From positions 310,001 to 374,000 of the forward strand of contig JAGAJM010000004.1 in assembly GCA_017626055.1 (NCBI GenBank): a DNA stretch of 64,000 nucleotides, in the 5' to 3' direction. Made by a program: the position numbers and the translations under genes. Position 1 is the first letter of the stretch; the number at the start of each line of letters is the position of its first letter. The notes under the pieces are model-generated. The model made no database searches, had not been told where the DNA came from, and worked only from the letters and a program-made list of their open reading frames with translations. Of the stretch, positions 31,984 through 61,445 are shown piece by piece. The DNA comes from a bacterium (GTDB lineage: Bacteria > Cyanobacteriota > Vampirovibrionia > Gastranaerophilales > Gastranaerophilaceae).

Positions 31984-34983
31984 TTAAATGCTGAAACCAT
32001 TGAGTGAGCAGTAGGACATTAAAATATTTGTTTGTTCTTCAATTTTTGTTTTAATATATGTGTTTCTAGTTTCTGTTAATACGATATCAAGAGCTTTTTT
32101 ATACATTTTAGAGGCACCTTTTAAGTATTCAGCTTGATTTGAGCCTTGAATAGTTCCAAGGTCTTGATATTGTTTTCCATAAATGAAGTAAATTCTTGCC
32201 ATTAAGTCATTCATTTCGTGCTTTTTAGCAAGGATTATTGCAGATTCTAAATCGATTTTTGCGCTCTCATAATCTGATAATTCAGTATGAGCTTTGGCAA
32301 GTAATATTTTTAGTAACACTATAAAATAAGTATTATTAATTCTTGGGTTCTGAGCAATTTCTAGTGCTTGAGTTGCAATATCGATAGCGTTTTTAGGACT
32401 TTCTGTAACTATCGTAGCTTCGGCGATTAAATACCAAGCCAACAGTGCTCCTATTGCTAGTTTTTTATTGGCAAAGAATGTTACTTCTTCATTATAAATT
32501 TCTACTGCACGTTTTGCTTGTTTATTTTCATAGAAAATTTTTCCAAGTAATGTTTTGAAAATGTTTTTAACGTATTCATTTCCTGTATCACTTGCAACAA
32601 TTGTAGATTCAAATAGCGATTCTTGTAGTCCATCAAATTCTTTTTTAAGAAATTTATTTATTATCTCAATCAAATGGTAATAATTGATGATATCAGCTTT
32701 TTCAGAATCAATAGTATTTATGTCTAAGAATTCTGAGCCAAGGCAACTTCTCACATCAGATAAGACCTCTTGAGATTTAACAAAATTTCCTTTTGTTGTG
32801 TTTGCCCAAGCAAGAACCAATTTTGTTTTGCAAATCAGATTTTCGTCTTTGATTTTATGCTTATCAATAATTGCAAATAAAAGATTTAAAATTTCAAATG
32901 AGCGTTCATTTCCTTGTAGAGCAAGCGCCGTTGCTAACGCCAAATACACCCTTAACCAAGTATCATATAAAAATCCCATAGGAATAGATTTATTTAATCT
33001 TGGGTGTGAAATATGAGAATTGATTACTGGCATGATATCGTTATCCACAAGGTTAACGACTTCTCCGCAATTACCTATATTTAATAGTGATGGCAATTTT
33101 GATGCTTTAATCATTGCGCTTTCAAGTTCTTGTGATGGTGTAAGTTTTTTTAATACATTATCAACACATTCAACATCTCCAAAATAGTTTCCAATTTTTT
33201 TACAACAAAGCGCAAGATATCCTAAAAGTTCAATTTCTTTTTCTTCATTATTATTTGATTTTGCGTTAGAAATTGCATCTGGTAAATATTCGATTGCTTC
33301 TTCAGGATCATATTCTGTTAGGAGTTTCCCTAGTCTTTCACTAATATTGTAACGGATGTTTAGGGTCTCGTTTTCATTAAATTCATTTAGCAATGCAAGG
33401 CACTGTTTTTGAGAAATTACGTATAAATTGATGTCGCCAATGTATGAAGCAAGTCTTGTTGTCTTTGTCCAAATATCAAATGCCATACGATTTTCTTTTA
33501 AATTATGAGCAATCATAGCCATAACTGCGTTTGTATTAAGAGTAAATACACTGATAGCTCTGCCAATTTTTACGTTTAAATCTTCAAATGCTGAATCACT
33601 TTGAATATTTTTTAATATGGTTTCCCATAAAAGTAAGTTATTAAATTCATAAAAAACTTCGTTATAAGGTCTTACGAAATTAGATTTTGCAAGGTAAGAC
33701 ATTATTTCATTGAATTCTTGGTTTTTGTAACCAAAAATTTGTTTTAACAGTGCTAAGTTTAGTTTGTCACCAATAATTGCAGCTCCACATAATAATTTAT
33801 GTGCGTCAGGATTTATTTTCTTTAATGTTTCAAGTCGATTTTTGATTAAATCTGCAAAACTATTAGGCATTAAAAATGCTTTGTCGGCAATTTGACAATC
33901 GAAACAATAGCTGATGGCTTGTTCTACAAATGCTGGATTCCCATTACACTTGCTAAAAATGACTTCTTTTTCCCTAGGTGAAACATATGTACCTGTTTCT
34001 CCAGTCATTTTTACAGTCTTTTCTAGTTCTTCTGCAGTTATTGGTGCTAGGTGAATGTCAACATATGCTTTTAATTCTTTTTTATCGATACCAAAATAGC
34101 TGCTTACGGGTTTGTGTTCGTTATAAATAGCGATAAATTTCAAGTTTTTCCAGTTGTTATCTCTGCGCATGAAATTTGTTAGAAATTCAATAGAAAAGCC
34201 ATCGATAAAATCTAGATTATCGATAACAAAAACAAATCTTCCAGTATGGCAAAATGCGTCAAATATTTTGTTTAATATGTCATAAGTTCTTTTTTTATTG
34301 ATGATTATATCTTCGTAATTTCCGTCTTTTGAGTTGTATAAGAAATTAAGAAAATCAGAAATTTCGGTAGGATTTAAAAACCTAAATTCATTGTTGAAAA
34401 ATTGAACTGCATCTTTTTGGAGTTCTTCGTTATTTACATAATAATTTGGTAATTTAAACAAATTAAGTAGCATGTCTTGTACAACCCCACCTGGAGTAAG
34501 TTGGGTTAATTGTGTACATTTGCCAATACACCATTCATATCTGTCTTTGCCCAAGTTTTTAACTACATTTTTTAATATAGCGCTTTTTCCAATACCTTTT
34601 TCGCCCGTAATAGAAAATATCTTTTTATCTCTTGAACGTAATCCTTCTTGTAAGATATCGATAGCTTGAGCTCTTGTATGTAATTTTGGAGTAAACTCAA
34701 TGGTTATATCTTTTTGGATGTTATTTTCTTTTTTCGTAGGCATTGGTTTTTGAAGGTTCCCAAAAGGAGATCCGCATTTTCTACATTTTGTTGCAATCGG
34801 GAAATTCACACTATGGCAGTGTGAACAGATTTTTAATAATTCTTGTCCACATTTTTTGCAAGTTAAATTACCAACAGGATTTACTGTATTGCAGTTGCTA
34901 CAAAGTAAGCCTGTACGAGTTTTACAATAAGGGCATTTTACTGCCGTATTGGGAATATTTTTCTTACATATTGGACATTTCAT
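31984..34983 (-). CDS. Zinc-ribbon / STAND-type ATPase / TPR protein
   Basis: 999 residues. The first ~75 residues hold three zinc ribbons (six C-x2-C pairs, from MKCPICKK to CRKCGSPFG). Then a STAND/AAA-type NTPase: Walker A TGEKGIGKSAIL near residue 131 and Walker B FVFVIDNLDFID near 256. From ~470 to the end is a helical array of TPR-like repeats (ALQGNERSFEILN, AKAHTELSDYESAK). Proteins of this plan are signal-dependent switches that assemble on ligand binding, related in layout to MalT and to adenylate-cyclase-linked AAA proteins, but no effector domain is fused here. The start follows the sigma factor stop by 9 bases with no Shine-Dalgarno, indicating coupled translation. Confidence 0.8.
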   Translation of the reverse strand: MKCPICKKNIPNTAVKCPYCKTRTGLLCSNCNTVNPVGNLTCKKCGQELLKICSHCHSVNFPIATKCRKCGSPFGNLQKPMPTKKENNIQKDITIEFTPKLHTRAQAIDILQEGLRSRDKKIFSITGEKGIGKSAILKNVVKNLGKDRYEWCIGKCTQLTQLTPGGVVQDMLLNLFKLPNYYVNNEELQKDAVQFFNNEFRFLNPTEISDFLNFLYNSKDGNYEDIIINKKRTYDILNKIFDAFCHTGRFVFVIDNLDFIDGFSIEFLTNFMRRDNNWKNLKFIAIYNEHKPVSSYFGIDKKELKAYVDIHLAPITAEELEKTVKMTGETGTYVSPREKEVIFSKCNGNPAFVEQAISYCFDCQIADKAFLMPNSFADLIKNRLETLKKINPDAHKLLCGAAIIGDKLNLALLKQIFGYKNQEFNEIMSYLAKSNFVRPYNEVFYEFNNLLLWETILKNIQSDSAFEDLNVKIGRAISVFTLNTNAVMAMIAHNLKENRMAFDIWTKTTRLASYIGDINLYVISQKQCLALLNEFNENETLNIRYNISERLGKLLTEYDPEEAIEYLPDAISNAKSNNNEEKEIELLGYLALCCKKIGNYFGDVECVDNVLKKLTPSQELESAMIKASKLPSLLNIGNCGEVVNLVDNDIMPVINSHISHPRLNKSIPMGFLYDTWLRVYLALATALALQGNERSFEILNLLFAIIDKHKIKDENLICKTKLVLAWANTTKGNFVKSQEVLSDVRSCLGSEFLDINTIDSEKADIINYYHLIEIINKFLKKEFDGLQESLFESTIVASDTGNEYVKNIFKTLLGKIFYENKQAKRAVEIYNEEVTFFANKKLAIGALLAWYLIAEATIVTESPKNAIDIATQALEIAQNPRINNTYFIVLLKILLAKAHTELSDYESAKIDLESAIILAKKHEMNDLMARIYFIYGKQYQDLGTIQGSNQAEYLKGASKMYKKALDIVLTETRNTYIKTKIEEQTNILMSYCSLNGFSI

Positions 34984-34992
34984 AGTTTAGAA

Positions 34993-35553
34993 TTATTCGA
35001 TTGCGTTTCTTACTTTTTCCATCAACTTGAATAAGCGTTTTGAAATTTCAGATTGTGAGATCCCTATTTCTTCAGAAATTTCTTTCTGAGTCATGCCTTT
35101 ATCATAACGCAAAGTGTAGATATGTAAATAGTTTTTATCAGGATCTTCTTCATCAATTTTTTTAATTGTATCAGCTACAAAAGTCAAAATTTCTTTCTGA
35201 ATTACTATTTCTTCAGGACTTTCAGGAACTTTGATGTGTGAGTAACTGATTTCAACGTCAGAATAATCAACGGCTGGAGAAGTTTCAAACGCAACTTCTT
35301 TTGTTGACATGTAACCAGAACGTGTTCGTCTAAGTCTGCCAGAATCCTTTAATACGTTGATAATAGAGGTCGTAACAATGCGTTTAAGATAAGTTTCTAA
35401 AGTAGCTTCCGATTCGATTGCATTTAAAATTGCAACAGAACGTTTACACGTTTCGTTGAAAAAATCATCATATAAATCTTCGTTATTTGGATATTTACGA
35501 TCGTTTTTTATGATTTTACTAATTAAATCAATCTTATCTTGTGCTAGTTCCAC
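34993..35553 (-). CDS. Small sigma-70-family RNA polymerase sigma factor
   Basis: 186 residues. The C-terminal region is a clear sigma region 4 helix-turn-helix (YDKGMTQKEISEEIGISQSEISKRLFKLMEKVR). The N-terminal half resembles region 2 (ETYLKRIVTTSIINVLKD), and no region 3 is seen, as in ECF-type factors. The start is GTG at 35553 with GAGGG 11 bases upstream. It is sandwiched between the giant acidic TonB-like gene (40 bases upstream) and the zinc-ribbon ATPase gene (9 bases downstream) on the same strand, so its activity is probably governed by one of them. No classical anti-sigma domain is seen next to it. Confidence 0.82.
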   Translation of the reverse strand: MELAQDKIDLISKIIKNDRKYPNNEDLYDDFFNETCKRSVAILNAIESEATLETYLKRIVTTSIINVLKDSGRLRRTRSGYMSTKEVAFETSPAVDYSDVEISYSHIKVPESPEEIVIQKEILTFVADTIKKIDEEDPDKNYLHIYTLRYDKGMTQKEISEEIGISQSEISKRLFKLMEKVRNAIE

Positions 35554-35593: not shown

Positions 35594-38500
35594 TTAGAAA
35601 TAAATATTAAGAGTTACTGGAGTGTTTTCCTCATTACCCACGCTATTTGGCGCTTTTAAGGCTTTTAACACTTTGTTTACAGTTTGTAACACAATTTTAT
35701 CGATTTGATTTGAGCCACTTGAAGTTATGATTTGAGCATTTTGTAGTGTACCATCTTTGCCAAAAGTTATCCCTACTCTCATATTATTTGAATATAGTGG
35801 ATCGGTAGCAAGTAGTAGGTCACCTGTTAATGATATTTTAAGGCTCTTACCTGTGGTTTGGAAATATTGCTTAAATTCTGGACTATAACTGATATAGCTT
35901 GGCAAGCTCCAAGTTAGTTTTTTAATGCTTACAAATGGTGTTGCGGTACCTTTTTTCTGTGTTGTAGTTGCACTTGCTGTTGCTGGAGTTTGTTGTTTAA
36001 CTTGTTTTGTAGCATTATTAGTAGTTGCAAGTGCATTTGAATTGTTATCCATTTTTACAACATTATTTGGATCAATTTTTAATGTATTAGCTTCAGTTAC
36101 GCCATTATCAGAGCTTGTAGGAAGTGGTTCATCTGTAATAGGTTGAGGAGCCTCTTCTGTCGGATTTTTGAAGAATTTAGCAATGCCAAATCCAATTCCT
36201 CCAACTAAAGCCAATATAATCAATGTGCTAATAATTGTTAATAAACCTCTTGCTGCGTTTCCTTGATTATTTGAATTACTCATTCTGCCTGGGGTTTGTA
36301 ATAATGCTCCTCCAGGAATTCTTGAATCTGGATTATAAATGCTTGCTAGAGATTCATCTTCTTCATATATTGGTGCATTTTGTGCGTTAATATCGATATG
36401 GATTTCTCCAGCTTGGAATGATTTATCGCTGATAACTGTTGAGTTCTCTTTTACTGCATATGTTTTTTCTTCTGCAGATGGTTCTGTTATAAAGTCTTCA
36501 ACAGATTCTTGTGGTTGAATTTCAACATCTTCAAGATTTGTGTAATCTGTATCATTCATCCAGTCTTGTTGTTCTGTTGTGATTTCTTCAGTTTGCTCGT
36601 TAGTTTCGCTCATTTGTTCTATATCATCCATAGCGATTTCTGCTGGAGCTTCTTCTGTATATTCTTCAGTTGGGAAATCATCTCCTAGTAATTCTGAAAT
36701 ATCTGCTTCTTGTGATATGATTTCTGAATCGTTTGAAGTTGTTTCTTCTGCATCAATTACAAAAGGTTCATCGTCATCGATAACTATGGTTTCTCCAAAG
36801 TCTTCTGAAGCAAATGAATCGTCATCGTCATCAGAACTTCTAACAATATTGTTTGCTAGTAGAGCTTGTTTTGTAGCTTCATCAATTGTTGGTTTTGGTT
36901 TGTCATCGTGAGATGAACTTTCTTCTCTTCTTCTTGTTGAAGGTTTCATACAAGAACTGAAATCTAGTTCGTTTTCGCCTAGAGGTGAGTTTCCGTCTAG
37001 ATCCATATCCATTAAACCTTCTTCTTCTTTGTTTTCCATGCCTAAACTCATGTCAAGCATAGCATCCATTGTAGAAGTTCCATCTTCATCGATTGTAATT
37101 CCACCAGAACTGAATTGAGGTAGGTCAACAACACCTTCTTCGTTTGTATTGAAGTTGAGGTCAGGTAAGTTGTTAGCTCCTGCGCTCATATCAATATTAA
37201 TATCTGATAAGTTGCCTAAATCAGTGTTTTCATTACCTTGAATTAGTAGTTCTTCTTGTGAAATTGTTTCCATAGAGCCAAAATCAATTGAATCTTGAAC
37301 AAATTCTTTTTCTTCAAATATTTCAACTTCGTTTAGATTTTCTAAATCTGTTGGTCCGCCAAATTCTCCAGATAATTCCGCCTCAAGAGATGCTTCCATT
37401 TTAGCAAAAGATAAATCTTCAGTTGCTGCAATCATATGCTCTGGAACATCAATTTCTGCTGTGATGTCAGTTTTAGCATAGTCAATTTTATCTAAACTTT
37501 TTTGTTGGTCATCTTCTAATGTCTGAACTACATCATTAATCATTTCTCCCGCAACTGATGCAAGTTTTATAGCATCTTCGGATGCTGCAGCTTGAGCTTC
37601 TTCTTCAGCTGCTTTTGCTACTGCTCCAGCTATAGCAGTGGCAGTTGCAGCAGCTGCTACATCTAAAGGCTCGATTTCAGTAGTTTCTTTTTTCTCTTCA
37701 ACCTTATCCTTAATAGTTTCTTTAGATTGGGTATCAATAGCTGCAATAGTTTGGTCTAAGATAGAATCTACTGATAAGTTTTCTGTATTTTGGGGAACGT
37801 AAGGTTCATCTGGTGTAAGAGGAGGTTCTTCAATTTCCAATATTTCCTCTTCAACAGATTCTTCCATTTTTTCTTCAGTTTCTACTGGGGTTATAATTTC
37901 ATTGTTTTCATCAACTAAGTTTCCGCCAAGTAAATCATCTCCCAAATCTGTCGGATCGATTTCTAATGCTGGTGTTTCGTCTAAATCTAAAGTTGGTAAA
38001 TTTTCATCAATAGTTGCAGAAACTTCAACTGTTTCATCGATAGTTTCGTTAACAGGTTCTAATGTTTCCTCTTCAACATTATCAGCAATTTCAAGTTGAT
38101 CTTCTGCTGGAATCTCAAGTGATTCTTCGATAATAGGTTCTTCTAAACTAAGTTCAGTTGTTTCTTCTTCTTCAATTTCAAGTGTTTCAGTTTCATCAAT
38201 TTCTTGTTCAATAGAAACTTGAAGTTCATCCTCAGTTTCAGTATCTTCAGAAATTGTTTCTTCAATATTATCAAAATCTACTGGTTCGATATCTTCAATA
38301 AGCGTTTCTTCTGCAATTTCAAATTCTTCTTCCCTTTCCGCAACAGGCTCTTCAACTGAAACTCCAGTAGCTTCTTCCAATTCTTCCATAAATTCGTTAT
38401 CTTCATCAATTTCTTCAATTTGAACGTTTTCTTCAATTGGTTCTGCTAGAAGTTCTTCTTCTGATGTTTCAATATTATCTTCGATAGGTGCAAGTTCGTC

Positions 38501-39610
38501 TTCAACGATTTCATCGTCGATATCAGCGTCTAAATCAACAACATCTAATTCTGTAACTTCTTCTTCAATAGTTTCTTCCTCTAAAGCTGTTTCTTCGATT
38601 GGTTCTTCTTCTAAAAGAGCTTCTTCTTCTGTTTCAGTATTTTCTTCTAATTCCTCTTCAATAAGTTCATCTGAAGTTTCATCATCAGAAACAGGGTCTT
38701 CCAATGGCTCAACTAGAGTTTCTTCTTCAAGTTCTGGTTCAGGGAAAGCTGCATCCAAATCAAGATCTTCGTCCATTGCCATTGTTGCTAATGAGATTTC
38801 TTCAACTGGCTCTATTTCAGTTGAATCTTCAATGTTTGTTTCTTCCTCTACAATTTCATCTTCTTCGTTATTTTCTTCTTCTGTTGTAACTTCTGCTGGA
38901 ACTACTAAACTTTCTGATAATACTGGAGCTGCACTGTATGATAGAGTTTCAAAGTTGTCAAACTCAAGTACGCTTTCTCTTAGTACATCGCTTAATAATA
39001 AAAGTTCTAATAATTCTTTTTCTTCAGAAACAGAAATATTGTGATCTGCTAAAGAAATTGCTAGTTCTCGACCTCTTAGCAAGTCTTCTTCTGAAATATC
39101 TCTAGAAGTTCTACCAATGTAATCCTTTACAAATTTAGTTAAAGAAGCTGGGGAAGATAATTTATTTCTGTCAAAGAAATAGTAATCTCTGTTTTCATTT
39201 TGTTTGTTGATTTGAGAAGGTTTGAAATATCCAAGAAGTTCTACGTGTTTAAATTCTTCATCAAGTTTTAACACTACGTAAGCGTTTGGCACTAAATCTA
39301 ATTCAAAATGGCTTTTAGGGATAAAAATTTGTTTTTCGTCAAAAACTACACGAACATCTAAATGAATATTAGGAAGTAAAATGTCTGAAATATCAACGCT
39401 TTCTAAAATTTTAGAAATAGAGTGCAAATTATGAACATTAGTGAACTTAATACCTTCTGATGTAAGATATTTTGTAACAAGTTCAGCGCCAAGTGCATTC
39501 AAATATGCTCTATTTTTAAGCTCTTTATTCACAAAGTTTCTTGACATAAACTCTGCTTCAGTGTGATTTTCTTTCTCAATATAAATTAATGTTTCTTGTG
39601 TGTTAGCCAT
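35594..39610 (-). CDS. Giant acidic single-pass protein with TonB-like C-terminus
   Basis: 1,338 residues. A globular N-terminal region (1-~220), then ~850 residues extremely rich in Glu, Asp, Thr and Ser, with repeated EE-I-E-E-type runs. A single membrane segment (~1117-1142, LLTIISTLIILALVGG) is followed by a linker rich in Asn, Thr and Ala and a TonB-family C-terminal domain (~1235-1338, with GKDGTLQNAQIITSSGSNQIDKI-like start and paired strands). Topology: large acidic part in the cytoplasm, TonB-like part in the periplasm. That is unlike classical TonB, whose cytoplasmic part is tiny. GGAGG precedes the ATG. First gene of the cassette with the sigma factor and ATPase. Confidence 0.82.
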   Translation of the reverse strand: MANTQETLIYIEKENHTEAEFMSRNFVNKELKNRAYLNALGAELVTKYLTSEGIKFTNVHNLHSISKILESVDISDILLPNIHLDVRVVFDEKQIFIPKSHFELDLVPNAYVVLKLDEEFKHVELLGYFKPSQINKQNENRDYYFFDRNKLSSPASLTKFVKDYIGRTSRDISEEDLLRGRELAISLADHNISVSEEKELLELLLLSDVLRESVLEFDNFETLSYSAAPVLSESLVVPAEVTTEEENNEEDEIVEEETNIEDSTEIEPVEEISLATMAMDEDLDLDAAFPEPELEEETLVEPLEDPVSDDETSDELIEEELEENTETEEEALLEEEPIEETALEEETIEEEVTELDVVDLDADIDDEIVEDELAPIEDNIETSEEELLAEPIEENVQIEEIDEDNEFMEELEEATGVSVEEPVAEREEEFEIAEETLIEDIEPVDFDNIEETISEDTETEDELQVSIEQEIDETETLEIEEEETTELSLEEPIIEESLEIPAEDQLEIADNVEEETLEPVNETIDETVEVSATIDENLPTLDLDETPALEIDPTDLGDDLLGGNLVDENNEIITPVETEEKMEESVEEEILEIEEPPLTPDEPYVPQNTENLSVDSILDQTIAAIDTQSKETIKDKVEEKKETTEIEPLDVAAAATATAIAGAVAKAAEEEAQAAASEDAIKLASVAGEMINDVVQTLEDDQQKSLDKIDYAKTDITAEIDVPEHMIAATEDLSFAKMEASLEAELSGEFGGPTDLENLNEVEIFEEKEFVQDSIDFGSMETISQEELLIQGNENTDLGNLSDINIDMSAGANNLPDLNFNTNEEGVVDLPQFSSGGITIDEDGTSTMDAMLDMSLGMENKEEEGLMDMDLDGNSPLGENELDFSSCMKPSTRRREESSSHDDKPKPTIDEATKQALLANNIVRSSDDDDDSFASEDFGETIVIDDDEPFVIDAEETTSNDSEIISQEADISELLGDDFPTEEYTEEAPAEIAMDDIEQMSETNEQTEEITTEQQDWMNDTDYTNLEDVEIQPQESVEDFITEPSAEEKTYAVKENSTVISDKSFQAGEIHIDINAQNAPIYEEDESLASIYNPDSRIPGGALLQTPGRMSNSNNQGNAARGLLTIISTLIILALVGGIGFGIAKFFKNPTEEAPQPITDEPLPTSSDNGVTEANTLKIDPNNVVKMDNNSNALATTNNATKQVKQQTPATASATTTQKKGTATPFVSIKKLTWSLPSYISYSPEFKQYFQTTGKSLKISLTGDLLLATDPLYSNNMRVGITFGKDGTLQNAQIITSSGSNQIDKIVLQTVNKVLKALKAPNSVGNEENTPVTLNIYF

Positions 39611-56090: not shown

Positions 56091-56227
56091 ATGTTTCGGC
56101 TACATTTTTTATTCTATTCGGTGAAAATTTATTGTCAATAATAATTTTTTTATTCGTTTTTGTAACGTTTTATTGCAACGCCCAAAATATTTGTAAATTC
56201 TTTATCTTCAGCATCATTACTTTTGGT

Positions 56228-56875
56228 ATGAATATCAACTATATTTCATACCAACCAAACATTTATCCTAGCTCTCGTAAGTCCACTGCAAAACCATCTT
56301 TTACAGGTGGAATTATTCCAGAAGCTCTTACTCATGTTCATATTGGGTCAAAAGCGGATGGTTTTATCGGTAAAATCCGTGTTCGTCTTGCTGATGGCGG
56401 AGAAGCAATTCTAAATGTTTTTAAAAAACGCATGGGTCTTGATATGGAAAACTATAAAATTATCAATGACTATGATGAATTAATCGGTGAAATGGTTATG
56501 AAAGTAAAAAGATCAACTTATGTAGATCCTTGTAACTCAAGTCCAGTTGGTCCAAATTATGTGTTTGTTGATATGCTTAAAAACTATACCCGTCCAGGAA
56601 CTCCAGATCATAATCCAAAAATCCCTCATCACAAAGATATTGGAACCCGTTTGTTACAAATAGCACAACGCAGAAGTGATGAAGCTTTATGTAATGGAGA
56701 ATTAAAACTTAATTCAAAAGGCGAATCAAGAGATTGGTATTTGAATGTAATTGGTATGAAACAAGAATTCCCGCCAGAAAAATCAATGTATCATTTCCAA
56801 ATTCATAATCCAAATATTTTATATCTTCCACCAGAAGCTAAAGAACCTTTATCAAGATTACGTGGTGGTTTATAG
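56228..56875 (+). CDS. Hypothetical tagged protein
   Basis: 215 residues from the ATG at 56228; upstream in-frame codons give an implausible hydrophobic start without a ribosome site. The N-terminus carries PSFTG (residues 23-27). The remainder is soluble and basic, with GFIGKIRVRLADGGEA and a DTGT-like DIGTRLLQIAQ segment, of no known family. No Shine-Dalgarno is visible before 56228. It converges on the next gene with a 6-base overlap. Function unknown. Confidence 0.6.
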   Translation: MNINYISYQPNIYPSSRKSTAKPSFTGGIIPEALTHVHIGSKADGFIGKIRVRLADGGEAILNVFKKRMGLDMENYKIINDYDELIGEMVMKVKRSTYVDPCNSSPVGPNYVFVDMLKNYTRPGTPDHNPKIPHHKDIGTRLLQIAQRRSDEALCNGELKLNSKGESRDWYLNVIGMKQEFPPEKSMYHFQIHNPNILYLPPEAKEPLSRLRGGL

Positions 56876-57178: not shown

Positions 57179-57370
57179 GCGCAGTTCTACCTAAAAATAA
57201 CCTTACCTATTTATTAAAAGTTTTTTTTGTGAGGCAAATTGCTATTTTGAAAAATATTTGTAACAAATTTGTAAATTTGAAAAATTGTCGTATCGTTTCT
57301 GCGTAATGTTTTTAGGTTCTACATCTTTCATATGATTACCTTTTTTTGGTTTTTATGGTATCTTTTAATT

Positions 57371-58036
57371 ATGAATAATACGTTTAAAATTATATTGTTT
57401 GCAGCTACATTTTTAATAATGATTGGTTTAGGTATTTTTGGATTATCAAATTTAAAAGTTGATGATTTCCACAAGGCTGCGATTGTTTTTGTAGTTGATT
57501 CTTCTGCGTCTAATCAGAAGAATTTACCAGCTCAAAAAATGCTAATTAGACAACTTTGTTCAATGTTAGACCCAGAAGATCATATAAAAATCTTGAGGGT
57601 TTCTGAAGATTCGTATTTGATTTATGAAGGTTCTCCTCAGTCAAGTGCTGATGTGCGCAAATCTATGGAAAAATTTACTCAACTTGATACAAATGAGTAT
57701 GGTACAGCTTATGGTTTGGCATTGGATAAGGCTTTCAAACACGCTATGACAATGGATAAGGAAGGTTATATTCCTGCAGTTGTTGTGATTGGTGATTTGG
57801 AAAATGAAGGTGACACAAATAAACAGATTGATTGGGAAACTTTACCTGAAGATGTTTCTAATATAAAAAATCAAGCTGATGATTTTACAATGATGTTCCT
57901 ATATGCCGCTCCAGAAAAACTTGATTTGGTTAAAGAAAAATTAAATCCTGTTTTGGGCGAAAATAAACTTATTATAGGTAATGAGGTTGCATCAAATAAA
58001 TCATTAAGACGATTCTTAAATGCTATTGGAAGGTAA
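57371..58036 (+). CDS. von Willebrand factor A domain protein, membrane-anchored
   Basis: 222 residues from the ATG at 57371. An N-terminal membrane segment (IILFAATFLIMIGLGIFGLS) is followed by a VWA domain with the metal-ion-dependent adhesion site DSSAS (in AIVFVVDSSASNQKN) and the later strand PAVVVIGDLENEG. Such domains mediate protein-protein contacts outside the inner membrane. There is no Shine-Dalgarno; TATCTT at 57359 lies 6 bases before the ATG. Head of a three-gene operon with the FHA-like and TonB-like genes. Confidence 0.78.
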   Translation: MNNTFKIILFAATFLIMIGLGIFGLSNLKVDDFHKAAIVFVVDSSASNQKNLPAQKMLIRQLCSMLDPEDHIKILRVSEDSYLIYEGSPQSSADVRKSMEKFTQLDTNEYGTAYGLALDKAFKHAMTMDKEGYIPAVVVIGDLENEGDTNKQIDWETLPEDVSNIKNQADDFTMMFLYAAPEKLDLVKEKLNPVLGENKLIIGNEVASNKSLRRFLNAIGR

Positions 58037-58040
58037 TCTT

Positions 58041-59633
58041 ATGAAGGTTGTTATAAAATTTGGCGACAACTTAAAAGAGTTCGAAAATCAAGATACTATT
58101 GTGATTGGCAGTAGTGTTGGTTCTGACTTTGAAGTTCCAAATATGGCATCAACTGATGTTATAAAAATGGTTTATGCTGAAAAGTATAACAACTATGTTT
58201 TGATGAATGTTTCTCAAAATAAAGAACTTTTATGTAATGGTAAAACTTTTTCAAAACTTCTAGTAAATAAGGTGTTTACTATTGCTGGTGCTGGCTTACC
58301 AAAATCTATTGAGGTTGAGGTAATAATAGATTCAAGTTTAGATGCAAGTAATAATCAGGAGATGAGTATGCAAAATAATAACTTAAGACCTAATGTTCAA
58401 ACTGCCAGAGCTTCTGCTCAAGGTAAAGATGTTTTTGATCACGATGTTGAAAGACAGAGAATTGCGATTATTAAAGAAATTGGGTTTAAGTTATTGGAAC
58501 TTAAAGCAAATATTAAATCTGCTGGTATTACAACTTTTGTATTAAATGTAGCGATGGTTATTTTATCAGTAGTGTCATCATTTGCTATTACAAACTTTTT
58601 ATTAGGTTTTAAAATTGATAACACATCTTCTGTGTTGAATTTAACTACAAACTTTGGGTTTTTAATCTGTGTAACAGCTATTGTTGTTGCAATTTGTTTG
58701 ATTTTAAAACAAGGTGTATATTCACTTTTAGATTTTAATCAACACAAAAGATTAGGTGATTCTAATATTGCGCAAAAAGCGATTATCGGAATTGCTGGTT
58801 TATTCTTGTTTATTGTATATGTTATGAATTTGTTCTATTACAAAGCTATCCCAGGATTTGCTGCAGCATCAATATTTGTCTCATTATTATTTGTTGGTGC
58901 GTTAGCAACTGTTACTGTTGGTGGTGGCTATTTCAAATATCAAATTAAAAATTATAAACAACATCTTCAAGCTTGTGAATATAGAGAAGATTTTGAAAAT
59001 GTTATGAAAAGTTATAGAGGTTTGATTTCATCTTATGTAAATAAAATGAGTCAAAACAAAATTAATACTGTAAAAAGTAACTTAGTAAATAATCAAATGA
59101 AAATGGTATTAGAAGCATTTATTGGACTTTTAACTGCTCCATTCTTGGCATATGGTGTGTCTAATACTCTAGCAAGTTGTTTCCCTGAAGCTGCAAACTG
59201 GGTACGTATTTCTGGTTTAAGATTCAGCCCGATTTTCTTGGTATTAGCTTCATTCTTGATTATTTTCGCATTCTTCTCATTTGTAAGAGCGTTCACTATT
59301 GGTAAACAAATCAAGGCTTCTGAGATTATCAAGTTTGATGGGTTCCACGATTACGCAAGTCATGGTGTAACTGTTCTTGGTTTAGATTCTATGAGAAGTT
59401 TAGAACGTGAGAAAAATGTTGTTATGTTTATTGCTTGCTTCATTATTTTAATTGAGTTTACAATGAACGTATCATATTTTATTACTGAAATTGGTGGCGA
59501 TATTCAAGGTATGTTCTTGAGTTTTGTAACTGCATTAGTTCCAACAGCATTATTGATTGCTGAAACTCATATGCTAAGTGCTACTATGTTCAAAATCAAT
59601 AATTATAGTGAGTTGTTAGAAACTTTGGATTAG
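58041..59633 (+). CDS. Eight-TM membrane protein with FHA-like N-terminus
   Basis: 530 residues from the ATG at 58041; GGAAGG lies at the end of the preceding gene, 4 bases before. Residues ~1-105 look like a diverged FHA fold (FENQDTIVIGSSVGSDFEV), lacking the phospho-binding Arg and Ser/His. A linker (Gln/Asn-rich) leads to ~8 hydrophobic helices (FVLNVAMVILSVVSSFAI, FLFIVYVMNLFYY and further). It is a possible assembly scaffold with the VWA and TonB-like partners on each side. No known family. Confidence 0.7.
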   Translation: MKVVIKFGDNLKEFENQDTIVIGSSVGSDFEVPNMASTDVIKMVYAEKYNNYVLMNVSQNKELLCNGKTFSKLLVNKVFTIAGAGLPKSIEVEVIIDSSLDASNNQEMSMQNNNLRPNVQTARASAQGKDVFDHDVERQRIAIIKEIGFKLLELKANIKSAGITTFVLNVAMVILSVVSSFAITNFLLGFKIDNTSSVLNLTTNFGFLICVTAIVVAICLILKQGVYSLLDFNQHKRLGDSNIAQKAIIGIAGLFLFIVYVMNLFYYKAIPGFAAASIFVSLLFVGALATVTVGGGYFKYQIKNYKQHLQACEYREDFENVMKSYRGLISSYVNKMSQNKINTVKSNLVNNQMKMVLEAFIGLLTAPFLAYGVSNTLASCFPEAANWVRISGLRFSPIFLVLASFLIIFAFFSFVRAFTIGKQIKASEIIKFDGFHDYASHGVTVLGLDSMRSLEREKNVVMFIACFIILIEFTMNVSYFITEIGGDIQGMFLSFVTALVPTALLIAETHMLSATMFKINNYSELLETLD

Positions 59634-59639
59634 TGATCT

Positions 59640-60581
59640 ATGAATAAAATTTTATGGCTAGGCGCCTTGATCGTATTTGTATTTGTGACAGTTTTTGTTG
59701 TTTCTTTAGATACAACTCAGACTCATCGTGTACAATTTAGTAATCAAGATTTTGCCATAAAAAATGAAGGTAACGAAGTTGTTAATAATTCAATTCATGG
59801 CACAAATGCAAATGTAAAATTTAGTGATTCAAAGTTTACTAATAAAGGTATTTCAGCCACAGATACTAAGTTGAATTTAAACTCAACAAAAGTTGGTTTA
59901 AGTGATTCTTCAAATTTGAACGTAAAAGATGTGAGTATCGGTAATTCTTCTGATTTTAATTCTAAGAATGTGAAATTTAAAGATAATTCAAAATATTCAT
60001 ACCAAGGAACTGAATTTGGAGATAAAGCAGCAAATTATGGTAATCAAGATTTGGATTTTGAAACTCAGAGTACTGGATTTAAAAATTCAAACCCAATTGA
60101 ATATAAGAATTTAGATACAGAACATTTGGATAATGTTCTTGCTAACGCTAAAAATTATAAATACCAAAGTACAGATGTAAGTAACAAACCATTTCAACAA
60201 AAATCAAGATACCAATATAAAAATATTGATTGGAATACTTGGAGAAGTGAATTCGTTAATAAAATTCTTGATGATAGTTTAACTATTCGTAGTTTAGATA
60301 CCTATGGTCAAGGAGCTTGGTTCTTTTATTCTTTTGATGTTTCAAGTGAGGGTAAAATTTCGAATATTACTATCAAGTCAATGTATTTAAAAGATGAAGA
60401 TAAGAAAAGAGTTGCACAACTAATTCAAAGTTATCAATACAAAGAAATTACAGTTTTTCCTGCAAATACGAATCGTAAAAGTGCAAGAGTTTCAGCAGTC
60501 ATGATGCTTTCAAATGAAACAAAACACTCTTCGCCAAATGATTTTAATGATTTTGAGCAAATAAGATTAAAAATCAAATAA
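59640..60581 (+). CDS. Membrane-anchored protein with pentapeptide-like repeats and TonB-like C-terminus
   Basis: 313 residues. An N-terminal anchor (KILWLGALIVFVFVTVFVVS) is followed by ~120 residues of Asn/Ser/Lys-rich short repeats (for example KFSDSKFTNKGISATDTKL, GLSDSSNLNVKDVSIG), which read like a beta-helix of pentapeptide type. The C-terminal ~90 residues (FFYSFDVSSEGKISNI, DKKRVAQLIQSYQYKEI) resemble a TonB-type domain. It closes the VWA/FHA-like operon, 7 bases after the preceding stop, and abuts the next convergent gene. Likely an envelope-spanning force or contact protein; role unproven. Confidence 0.68.
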   Translation: MNKILWLGALIVFVFVTVFVVSLDTTQTHRVQFSNQDFAIKNEGNEVVNNSIHGTNANVKFSDSKFTNKGISATDTKLNLNSTKVGLSDSSNLNVKDVSIGNSSDFNSKNVKFKDNSKYSYQGTEFGDKAANYGNQDLDFETQSTGFKNSNPIEYKNLDTEHLDNVLANAKNYKYQSTDVSNKPFQQKSRYQYKNIDWNTWRSEFVNKILDDSLTIRSLDTYGQGAWFFYSFDVSSEGKISNITIKSMYLKDEDKKRVAQLIQSYQYKEITVFPANTNRKSARVSAVMMLSNETKHSSPNDFNDFEQIRLKIK

Positions 60582-61445
60582 TTATTCAAAGAATTCTATA
60601 ATCCTACCAACCAATGTTGGGGGATTATTTTCTAAAGTTGAAGTTGTGATATCTATTGAATATTTATCGTTAAGTTCTTTTTGCACTTGTTTTAAAGGTG
60701 TTTGCATGATTTTTCTAATAGCGTCGTCATCAGCTAATTTCATACTTTCCCCTTCGCCAATAATTTGGTATGCAAAATCTTTATTTTCGTGCCAATTGAT
60801 AACAAATTTTCTTTGATATCCACAATATTTACCATTCTCTTTTATAGAGTTAAAGTCTGTTTCAATAGTAATGTCGTGTAATTGTCTTAATCTTGAGATT
60901 AGAGGGGATTGCTCAATTGTAGATACAATTCTTTCGTGAAAATTCCCGATTATATCAAATTCTCCAGATTTTTTCTTTGTAGGAACAAATGTTGATAGTT
61001 GCTTTACTAAATCTTCGGCTTGTTCAAACTGATCAAATAAAGATGAATGAACATCGCTTTTAAAAGTATCAGAACTAGAAAAACTATCGACCCTTGAGTT
61101 GTCTTTTTTTATACTGAAATCTAGTGGTTGTTTGATTATTGTCTTATTTCCTTTTTCGATAGCAATTCCTGCAACTCTTTCGCTGAATGGATTTTTCCCA
61201 AAATGAAAATACCCAAGGACAATGTTGATTAATGAGTTGTCTTTTTGATTTTGGTCAACTTTGTCTAACATTTTTGCAGGGGTGATGGTGCCATATTTTG
61301 ATATAAATTCATCGTTTGGCGCAACTGCAAGTTTTAAATACATTTCGTGTTGTTTTAAGATTTCTGGTAAATCCTTAATGATGTTTTTCTTGATTTTTAA
61401 CGCAGTAAAACTAACGGGGTGCGTATATTTATTATCTATTTCCAC
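60582..61445 (-). CDS. Hypothetical tagged protein, GTG start
   Basis: 287 residues from GTG at 61445, chosen because AGAGGA lies 7 bases upstream. The N-terminus holds VSFTA (residues 11-15). The remainder is soluble, with no recognised fold. It converges with the TonB-like gene, stop against stop. Function unknown. Confidence 0.6.
   Translation of the reverse strand: MEIDNKYTHPVSFTALKIKKNIIKDLPEILKQHEMYLKLAVAPNDEFISKYGTITPAKMLDKVDQNQKDNSLINIVLGYFHFGKNPFSERVAGIAIEKGNKTIIKQPLDFSIKKDNSRVDSFSSSDTFKSDVHSSLFDQFEQAEDLVKQLSTFVPTKKKSGEFDIIGNFHERIVSTIEQSPLISRLRQLHDITIETDFNSIKENGKYCGYQRKFVINWHENKDFAYQIIGEGESMKLADDDAIRKIMQTPLKQVQKELNDKYSIDITTSTLENNPPTLVGRIIEFFE

Follow-up and report, generated by a model that had tools for sequence, protein, structure and literature searches.

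How does a TonB-like protein act when no ExbB/ExbD genes adjoin it, and when it is encoded together with a VWA protein and a multipass protein carrying an FHA-like domain? This question is raised by three genes in the window, which is the whole stretch of 64,000 nucleotides analysed here from a Gastranaerophilaceae genome of 1.87 Mb. In the open reading frame list of the window, the three frames lie on the plus strand with spacings of 4 and 6 bases, and the three tightly packed genes described by the earlier note were thus recovered at the same coordinates, as follows.

57371–58036, + strand: gene 1, membrane-anchored VWA protein (221 aa, counted from the conserved ATG)
58041–59633, + strand: gene 2, protein with an FHA-like domain and eight transmembrane (TM) helices (530 aa)
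59640–60581, + strand: gene 3, TonB/TolA-like protein (313 aa)
60607–60620, + strand: terminator-like hairpin directly 3' of gene 3 (consensus match only)

A second in-frame ATG for gene 1 is located upstream at 57332. Terminator-like hairpins were seen twice in the region, compared with an expectation of 0.9, which is weak evidence. The analysis supports the view that the trio is an envelope set, made up of a VWA protein, a multipass protein that carries a degenerate FHA domain, and a protein whose C-terminus is TonB-like, with ExbBD not alongside. Our preferred reading, to which we assign a probability of about one half, is that the set constitutes a trans-envelope coupling module of the TonB/TolA type that has an inner-membrane unit of its own.

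Each of the three genes was matched in all 35 other genomes of the genus that were sampled, and in a separate collection the trio was found together in 36/36 loci (barring contig ends) with changing neighbours. Conservation of the genes with one another, which the earlier note had named as a check on its proposal, was therefore observed across the genus, and the flanks were variable. The weakest matches within the genus came from second copies or from fragments cut off at a contig end. In 71 cases and in 17/20 further loci, gene 2 was immediately preceded by the VWA gene, and in 20/20 further loci it was followed by the TonB-like gene, which shows that gene 2 and gene 3 are practically never separated and that gene 1 is almost as firmly linked to them. 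A profile of gene 2 matched 161 of the 241 genomes of the order (30/50 genera), nearly all of them belonging to one family, and no gene 2 outside that family was found among the matches listed in the class and phylum samples. One copy from outside the family (G051) lies on a short contig of a genome that is 66% complete and nests among the family copies; it may be caused by a binning error or by transfer. In the genus g22, the FHA-like domain is present alone as a 99-residue protein. No published description of the gene set, in Gastranaerophilales/Melainabacteria or elsewhere, was found in the open-licence literature that was searched.

In many genomes a second, paralogous form of the operon was detected, which is widespread in the family and in which five genes encode a TrbI-like periplasmic protein, a VWA protein, an FHA-8TM protein, a TonB-like protein and a protein composed of a zinc ribbon, a TM helix, a linker and a TonB_2 domain (the last of these proteins is above the Pfam cut-off for TonB_2). 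Trees of gene 2 set the three-gene copies apart from the five-gene copies, under a midpoint root and with low support (0.107) at the base of the three-gene copies. Because the VWA gene is not beside gene 2 in five copies of the second type (L131, L137, L184, L185 and L199), the VWA protein may be accessory. Some of the five-gene operons have genes for secreted VWA proteins, or for a secreted TonB_C protein, next to them. The TrbI-like protein matched the TrbI family of Pfam with an E-value of 1.5e-7, below the curated cut-off, and a homologue of it was found upstream of TonB-ExbB-ExbD-ExbD in 9/9 loci examined (this genome and eight others, from four families of the order). In this way, one periplasmic partner is common to the ExbB/ExbD set and the VWA/FHA-8TM set. 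The likeness to the VirB10/TrbI family lies in this protein, which is encoded both within the paralogous operon and ahead of TonB-ExbBDD. As differences, the TrbI-like protein is absent from the three-gene copy of the window, it has a C-terminal Gly zipper, and other conjugation genes were not noted.

The product of gene 3 falls into three parts.

59646–59711, + strand: N-terminal TM helix (aa 3–24)
59718–60194, + strand: variable, Asn-rich linker of low model confidence (aa ~27–185)
60207–60578, + strand: TonB/TolA-type C-terminal domain, CTD (aa 190–313)

In the structure model, pLDDT was mostly over 90 across the CTD (190–313). Its nine best Foldseek matches were all TonB-type CTDs (best E-value 3.2e-3), and the VIA list was headed by TolA/TonB (Z from 6.8 to 5.0); these scores are modest, yet they are clearly concentrated on one family, and the earlier note's assignment of the domain, which a model of another type would have contradicted, is consistent with the predicted TonB/TolA fold. 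A sequence-profile search of the PDB with gene 3 also placed TonB first, with TonB accounting for 4/6 matches, although the best E-value was a weak 0.7. In sequence the CTD is distant from ordinary TonB (hhalign probability about 11%). Against the TonB_2 CTD of the zinc-ribbon protein a cleaned comparison gave 19%, compared with at most 1.4% for shuffled columns. A value of 99.6% for the same pair was dropped, as linker matches seemed to have contaminated the underlying set of sequences. The earlier note had described gene 3 as an anchor, beta-helix-like repeats and a TonB-like C-terminus, and it is the middle part that did not stand. At residues 27–159 pLDDT was under 50 and regular secondary structure was absent from the model. 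Gene 3 ranges from 235 to 313 aa in the three-gene copies, with the spread coming mainly from the linker, which is Asn-rich in gene 3 and richer in Thr/Lys/Pro/Gln in the paralogue. Since the linker varies in length and its composition differs between the paralogues, a beta-helix is argued against, and a beta-helix or pentapeptide repeat was rejected as an interpretation; the linker looks disordered and fast-evolving. The model thus shows a predicted layout of a single N-terminal TM helix, a linker and a TonB/TolA-fold CTD, in which the linker is probably on the periplasmic side.

The trio had been described as an envelope machine without its motor genes. Neither ExbB/ExbD nor TolQ/TolR genes were found in the neighbourhood, in agreement with that description, but the genome does not lack them: one ExbB and two ExbD are encoded on another contig, where the only ExbB-ExbD-ExbD set of the genome forms an operon with an ordinary TonB. 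A search of the genome with PF01618 gave this ExbB as its sole match, and not gene 2. Gene 3 might accordingly be an extra TonB energised by the single ExbB-ExbD-ExbD set, with genes 1 and 2 as accessories. Several TonBs per ExbBD are common in genomes, and 239 of the 241 genomes of the order encode a member of the MotA/ExbB family, whether or not they have the trio. However, the TM core of the gene 3 homologues contained histidine in 0/35 sequences, while the TonBs of ExbBD operons, which served as a control, had a histidine in or next to the TM segment in 9/9. The SHLS/His motif mediates docking of TolA and TonB on the TolQR/ExbBD motors (PMC12204202). Furthermore, gene 3 is linked to gene 2 and not to exbB, and no Plug domain of a TonB-dependent receptor was found in this genome, with positive results in the control genomes (Plug matches occur in 23/241 genomes of the order). 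We therefore judge an extra TonB unlikely. Since the docking residue was looked for and is missing, gene 3 was not filed as an ExbBD-dependent TonB, and its inner-membrane partner is more likely to be gene 2. A TonB-dependent receptor as its target in this genome was rejected on the outcome of the Plug search. In comparison with TonB/TolA transducers, gene 3 is alike in the N-terminal TM helix, the long linker and the fold of the CTD; it differs in the lack of adjoining motor genes, the missing TM histidine, a linker poor in Pro, the pairing with VWA and FHA-8TM proteins and the receptor that was not found in the genome. The second TonB-like protein which the earlier note had counted in the window (35594–39610) does show a weak TonB_C match of 28.7 bits; in another search it reached 22.6 bits, just below the cut-off.

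The features of gene 2 are the following.

58041–58331, + strand: degenerate FHA domain (aa 1–97), a beta-sandwich in the model
58512–59585, + strand: eight-TM region (eight hydrophobic segments by hydropathy)
59454–59456, + strand: invariant E472, near the hydrophobic centre of TM7
59562–59564, + strand: invariant E508, in TM8

Gene 2 had no match in Pfam or NCBIfam, and a sequence search of the PDB gave no relative. Its structure model is of moderate confidence (mean pLDDT 72.9 and pTM 0.40, with pLDDT about 80 in the TM helices). Residues 1–97 are predicted to adopt an FHA fold: all 50 PDB chains in the VIA list are FHA domains (best match Z 11.6, rmsd 2.2, 91 aligned residues), and the top ranks of Foldseek are also FHA domains. 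As both lists were taken up by this domain, the fold of the TM part was scarcely probed by them. At the canonical Arg position S/T/N/G/K were found and R in 0/69 sequences, and at the canonical His position (Ser-x-x-His) K/T/G/A/S and H in 0/69; these positions were assigned by sequence pattern, and the commonest residues were rechecked in 89 sequences. The multipass protein with a degenerate FHA-like domain claimed before is thus borne out by the modelled fold, the lost Arg and His and the eight hydrophobic segments. A phosphothreonine reader was rejected on the missing phosphate-binding residues in the 69 sequences, and their loss fits a structural role of the domain.

A passive tether or scaffold is the main rival explanation, and we regard it as possible. 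The set would link inner membrane, wall and outer membrane, or position envelope machinery, with FHA and VWA as plain adaptors. The FHA fold of EssC in type VII secretion, likewise on a membrane protein and without phosphothreonine-binding residues, was reported to have no other role than a stabilising one (PMC4925161), although gene 2 differs from EssC in having one FHA domain, no ATPase domains and another TM part. VWA domains and TonB CTDs are binding modules, and in Anabaena the divergent TonB-like protein SjdR has a role in wall architecture which is unrelated to siderophore uptake (PMC8262864). A motor domain is also not recognisable in gene 2: the comparison of its TM region with ExbB/MotA profiles gave hhalign probabilities of 0.1–0.3, against 92 for the ExbB-MotA control, and by sequence gene 2 is not detectably ExbB/MotA. 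On the other side, R315, E358, R389, H441, E472, N476, P501, T502 and E508 are identical in 89/89 gene 2 sequences from many genera, and eight TM helices with so many invariant residues, membrane acids among them, exceed the needs of an anchor. The TrbI-like partner, moreover, accompanies a true ExbBD system as well.

Gene 1 was said to be a membrane-anchored VWA protein, and we reached the same description from one N-terminal hydrophobic helix and a VWA match above the Pfam cut-off (VWA_2, E-value 1.9e-7) with the DxSxS...T...D metal site.

aa ~5–26 of gene 1, + strand: N-terminal TM helix, followed by the VWA domain
57497–57511, + strand: D43-x-S45-x-S47 of the MIDAS, which is intact together with T112 and D142

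This metal site is partly lost in some copies of the second operon. The VWA domain is probably in the periplasm, a membrane side that was judged from the charge distribution only. In 35/37 VWA proteins the TM core has no charged residue and no His. Gene 1 resembles the vWA force transducers described in 2025 in being a VWA protein tethered to the inner membrane and encoded in what looks like a trans-envelope operon. Those transducers have TolQ(R)-like motors next to them, and either the SHLS His or a TM Asp is present in their anchor helix (PMC12204202). Gene 1, in contrast, has neither residue, and the TonB CTD is here on a separate protein. Since the TolQ neighbour and the TM signature are both missing, gene 1 was placed outside both vWA transducer families of that study.

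The zinc ribbon-TM-TonB_2 protein of the paralogous operon resembles GltJ, a protein of the Myxococcus Agl-Glt machine that has a zinc ribbon. The likeness extends to an FHA domain on a membrane protein, to TonB-CTD proteins and to a VWA protein, as GltG combines FHA with TonB, GltJ is TonB-like and CglB is a VWA adhesin (PMC3169522, PMC5349195, PMC13104615). With this parts list in common, and with secreted VWA proteins adjoining several five-gene operons, the set could be a relative of an Agl-Glt-type machine for gliding or surface adhesion, in which the secreted VWA proteins would be the adhesins. However, neither the AglRQS motor genes nor outer-membrane Glt-type barrels were seen alongside the trio, the FHA domain shares its protein with eight TM helices and the TonB domain is on another protein, the copy of the window has no neighbouring secreted VWA gene, and motility is not documented in these bacteria. 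Such a relationship is therefore highly improbable. The myxobacterial Agl-Glt machine and the vWA force transducers are nevertheless the closest parallels to the trio.

In the trans-envelope coupling module that we prefer, the TM helix of gene 3 would dock on gene 2 instead of ExbB, and gene 2 would take the place of a motor or platform, forming the inner-membrane unit with gene 1. The FHA domain may provide a cytoplasmic protein-protein or assembly contact, and the VWA domain may bind a partner through its metal site in the periplasm. The CTD of gene 3 would engage an outer-membrane or periplasmic target; as the search of this genome revealed no TonB-dependent receptor, the TrbI-like proteins are a possible one. 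The most speculative step, a guess, is that gene 2 might be driven by proton motive force via the membrane-embedded invariant carboxylates E472/E508. If this step is removed, what would remain is a tether, either passive or gated by a signal. Taken to its full extent, the proton-drive step would make gene 2 a new, non-ExbB/MotA family of proton-driven motors, with the VWA protein as the counterpart of ExbD and protons carried by E472/E508, which we consider doubtful. Transporters and scaffolds also have invariant buried acids. The TM part of gene 2 has no known fold as an anchor for the motor reading, and its model is of moderate confidence.

To our knowledge, the motors behind all TonB/TolA-type transducers are five-to-two motors that belong to a single related set (ExbBD, TolQR and AglRQS). 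A conserved TonB-like protein without the docking histidine, genetically tied to an unrelated eight-TM protein, would point either to a second route by which the outer membrane is energised or to a TonB fold that is used passively. As one part is common to the paralogous operon and a true ExbBD operon, both can be compared within one cell. For a large and mostly uncultured group of cyanobacterial relatives from the gut, the trio provides a candidate envelope system.

A rubredoxin/rubrerythrin-like gene (178-222 aa) lies 5' of the trio (membrane VWA, degenerate FHA with eight TM segments, TonB/TolA-like) on the same strand at 17 loci (within L046-L069), and in most of these the two are directly adjacent. 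One trio of the window's genus (L064) is found on a contig labelled Muribaculaceae, probably through misbinning or mislabelling. The degenerate FHA domain exists in genus g22 as a separate 99-aa protein (L124:8539-8838; L125-L127), with MFS and HlyD-like efflux genes nearby (L124-L127). Additionally, a short N-terminal motif of the SFTG/SFTA/SFGQ type, behind a short leader, is common to many unrelated proteins, including two in the window and those of several other loci:

56132-56875, motif protein
60582-61445, motif protein

The second TonB-like protein of the window is followed by two further genes:

35594-39610 (-), strongly acidic 1338-aa protein that contains a TM segment and matches TonB_C weakly at its C-terminus
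34993-35553, sigma-factor-like gene
31984-34983, zinc-ribbon NTPase-like gene

Secreted proteins were detected beside some of the paralogous five-gene operons. A tandem array of four secreted VWA-type proteins, all of one family (L137:2672-6439), adjoins a five-gene-type operon that lacks its own membrane VWA gene. Another five-gene operon is adjoined by a secreted protein whose TonB_C domain is clear (L129:5129-5917, E 1.5e-10), which is resembled by a TonB_C-only protein with a signal-peptide-like start in the window's genome (L002:1456-1941).

To our knowledge, TrbI-like proteins have not been described in connection with Ton systems. At nine loci across the order, the TonB-ExbB-ExbD-ExbD operon is headed by a periplasmic TrbI/VirB10-like Gly-zipper protein, in most cases with a second, shorter such protein immediately upstream; in the window's genome it is:

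L174:4142-4852 (contig C12), TrbI/VirB10-like Gly-zipper protein heading the TonB-ExbB-ExbD-ExbD operon
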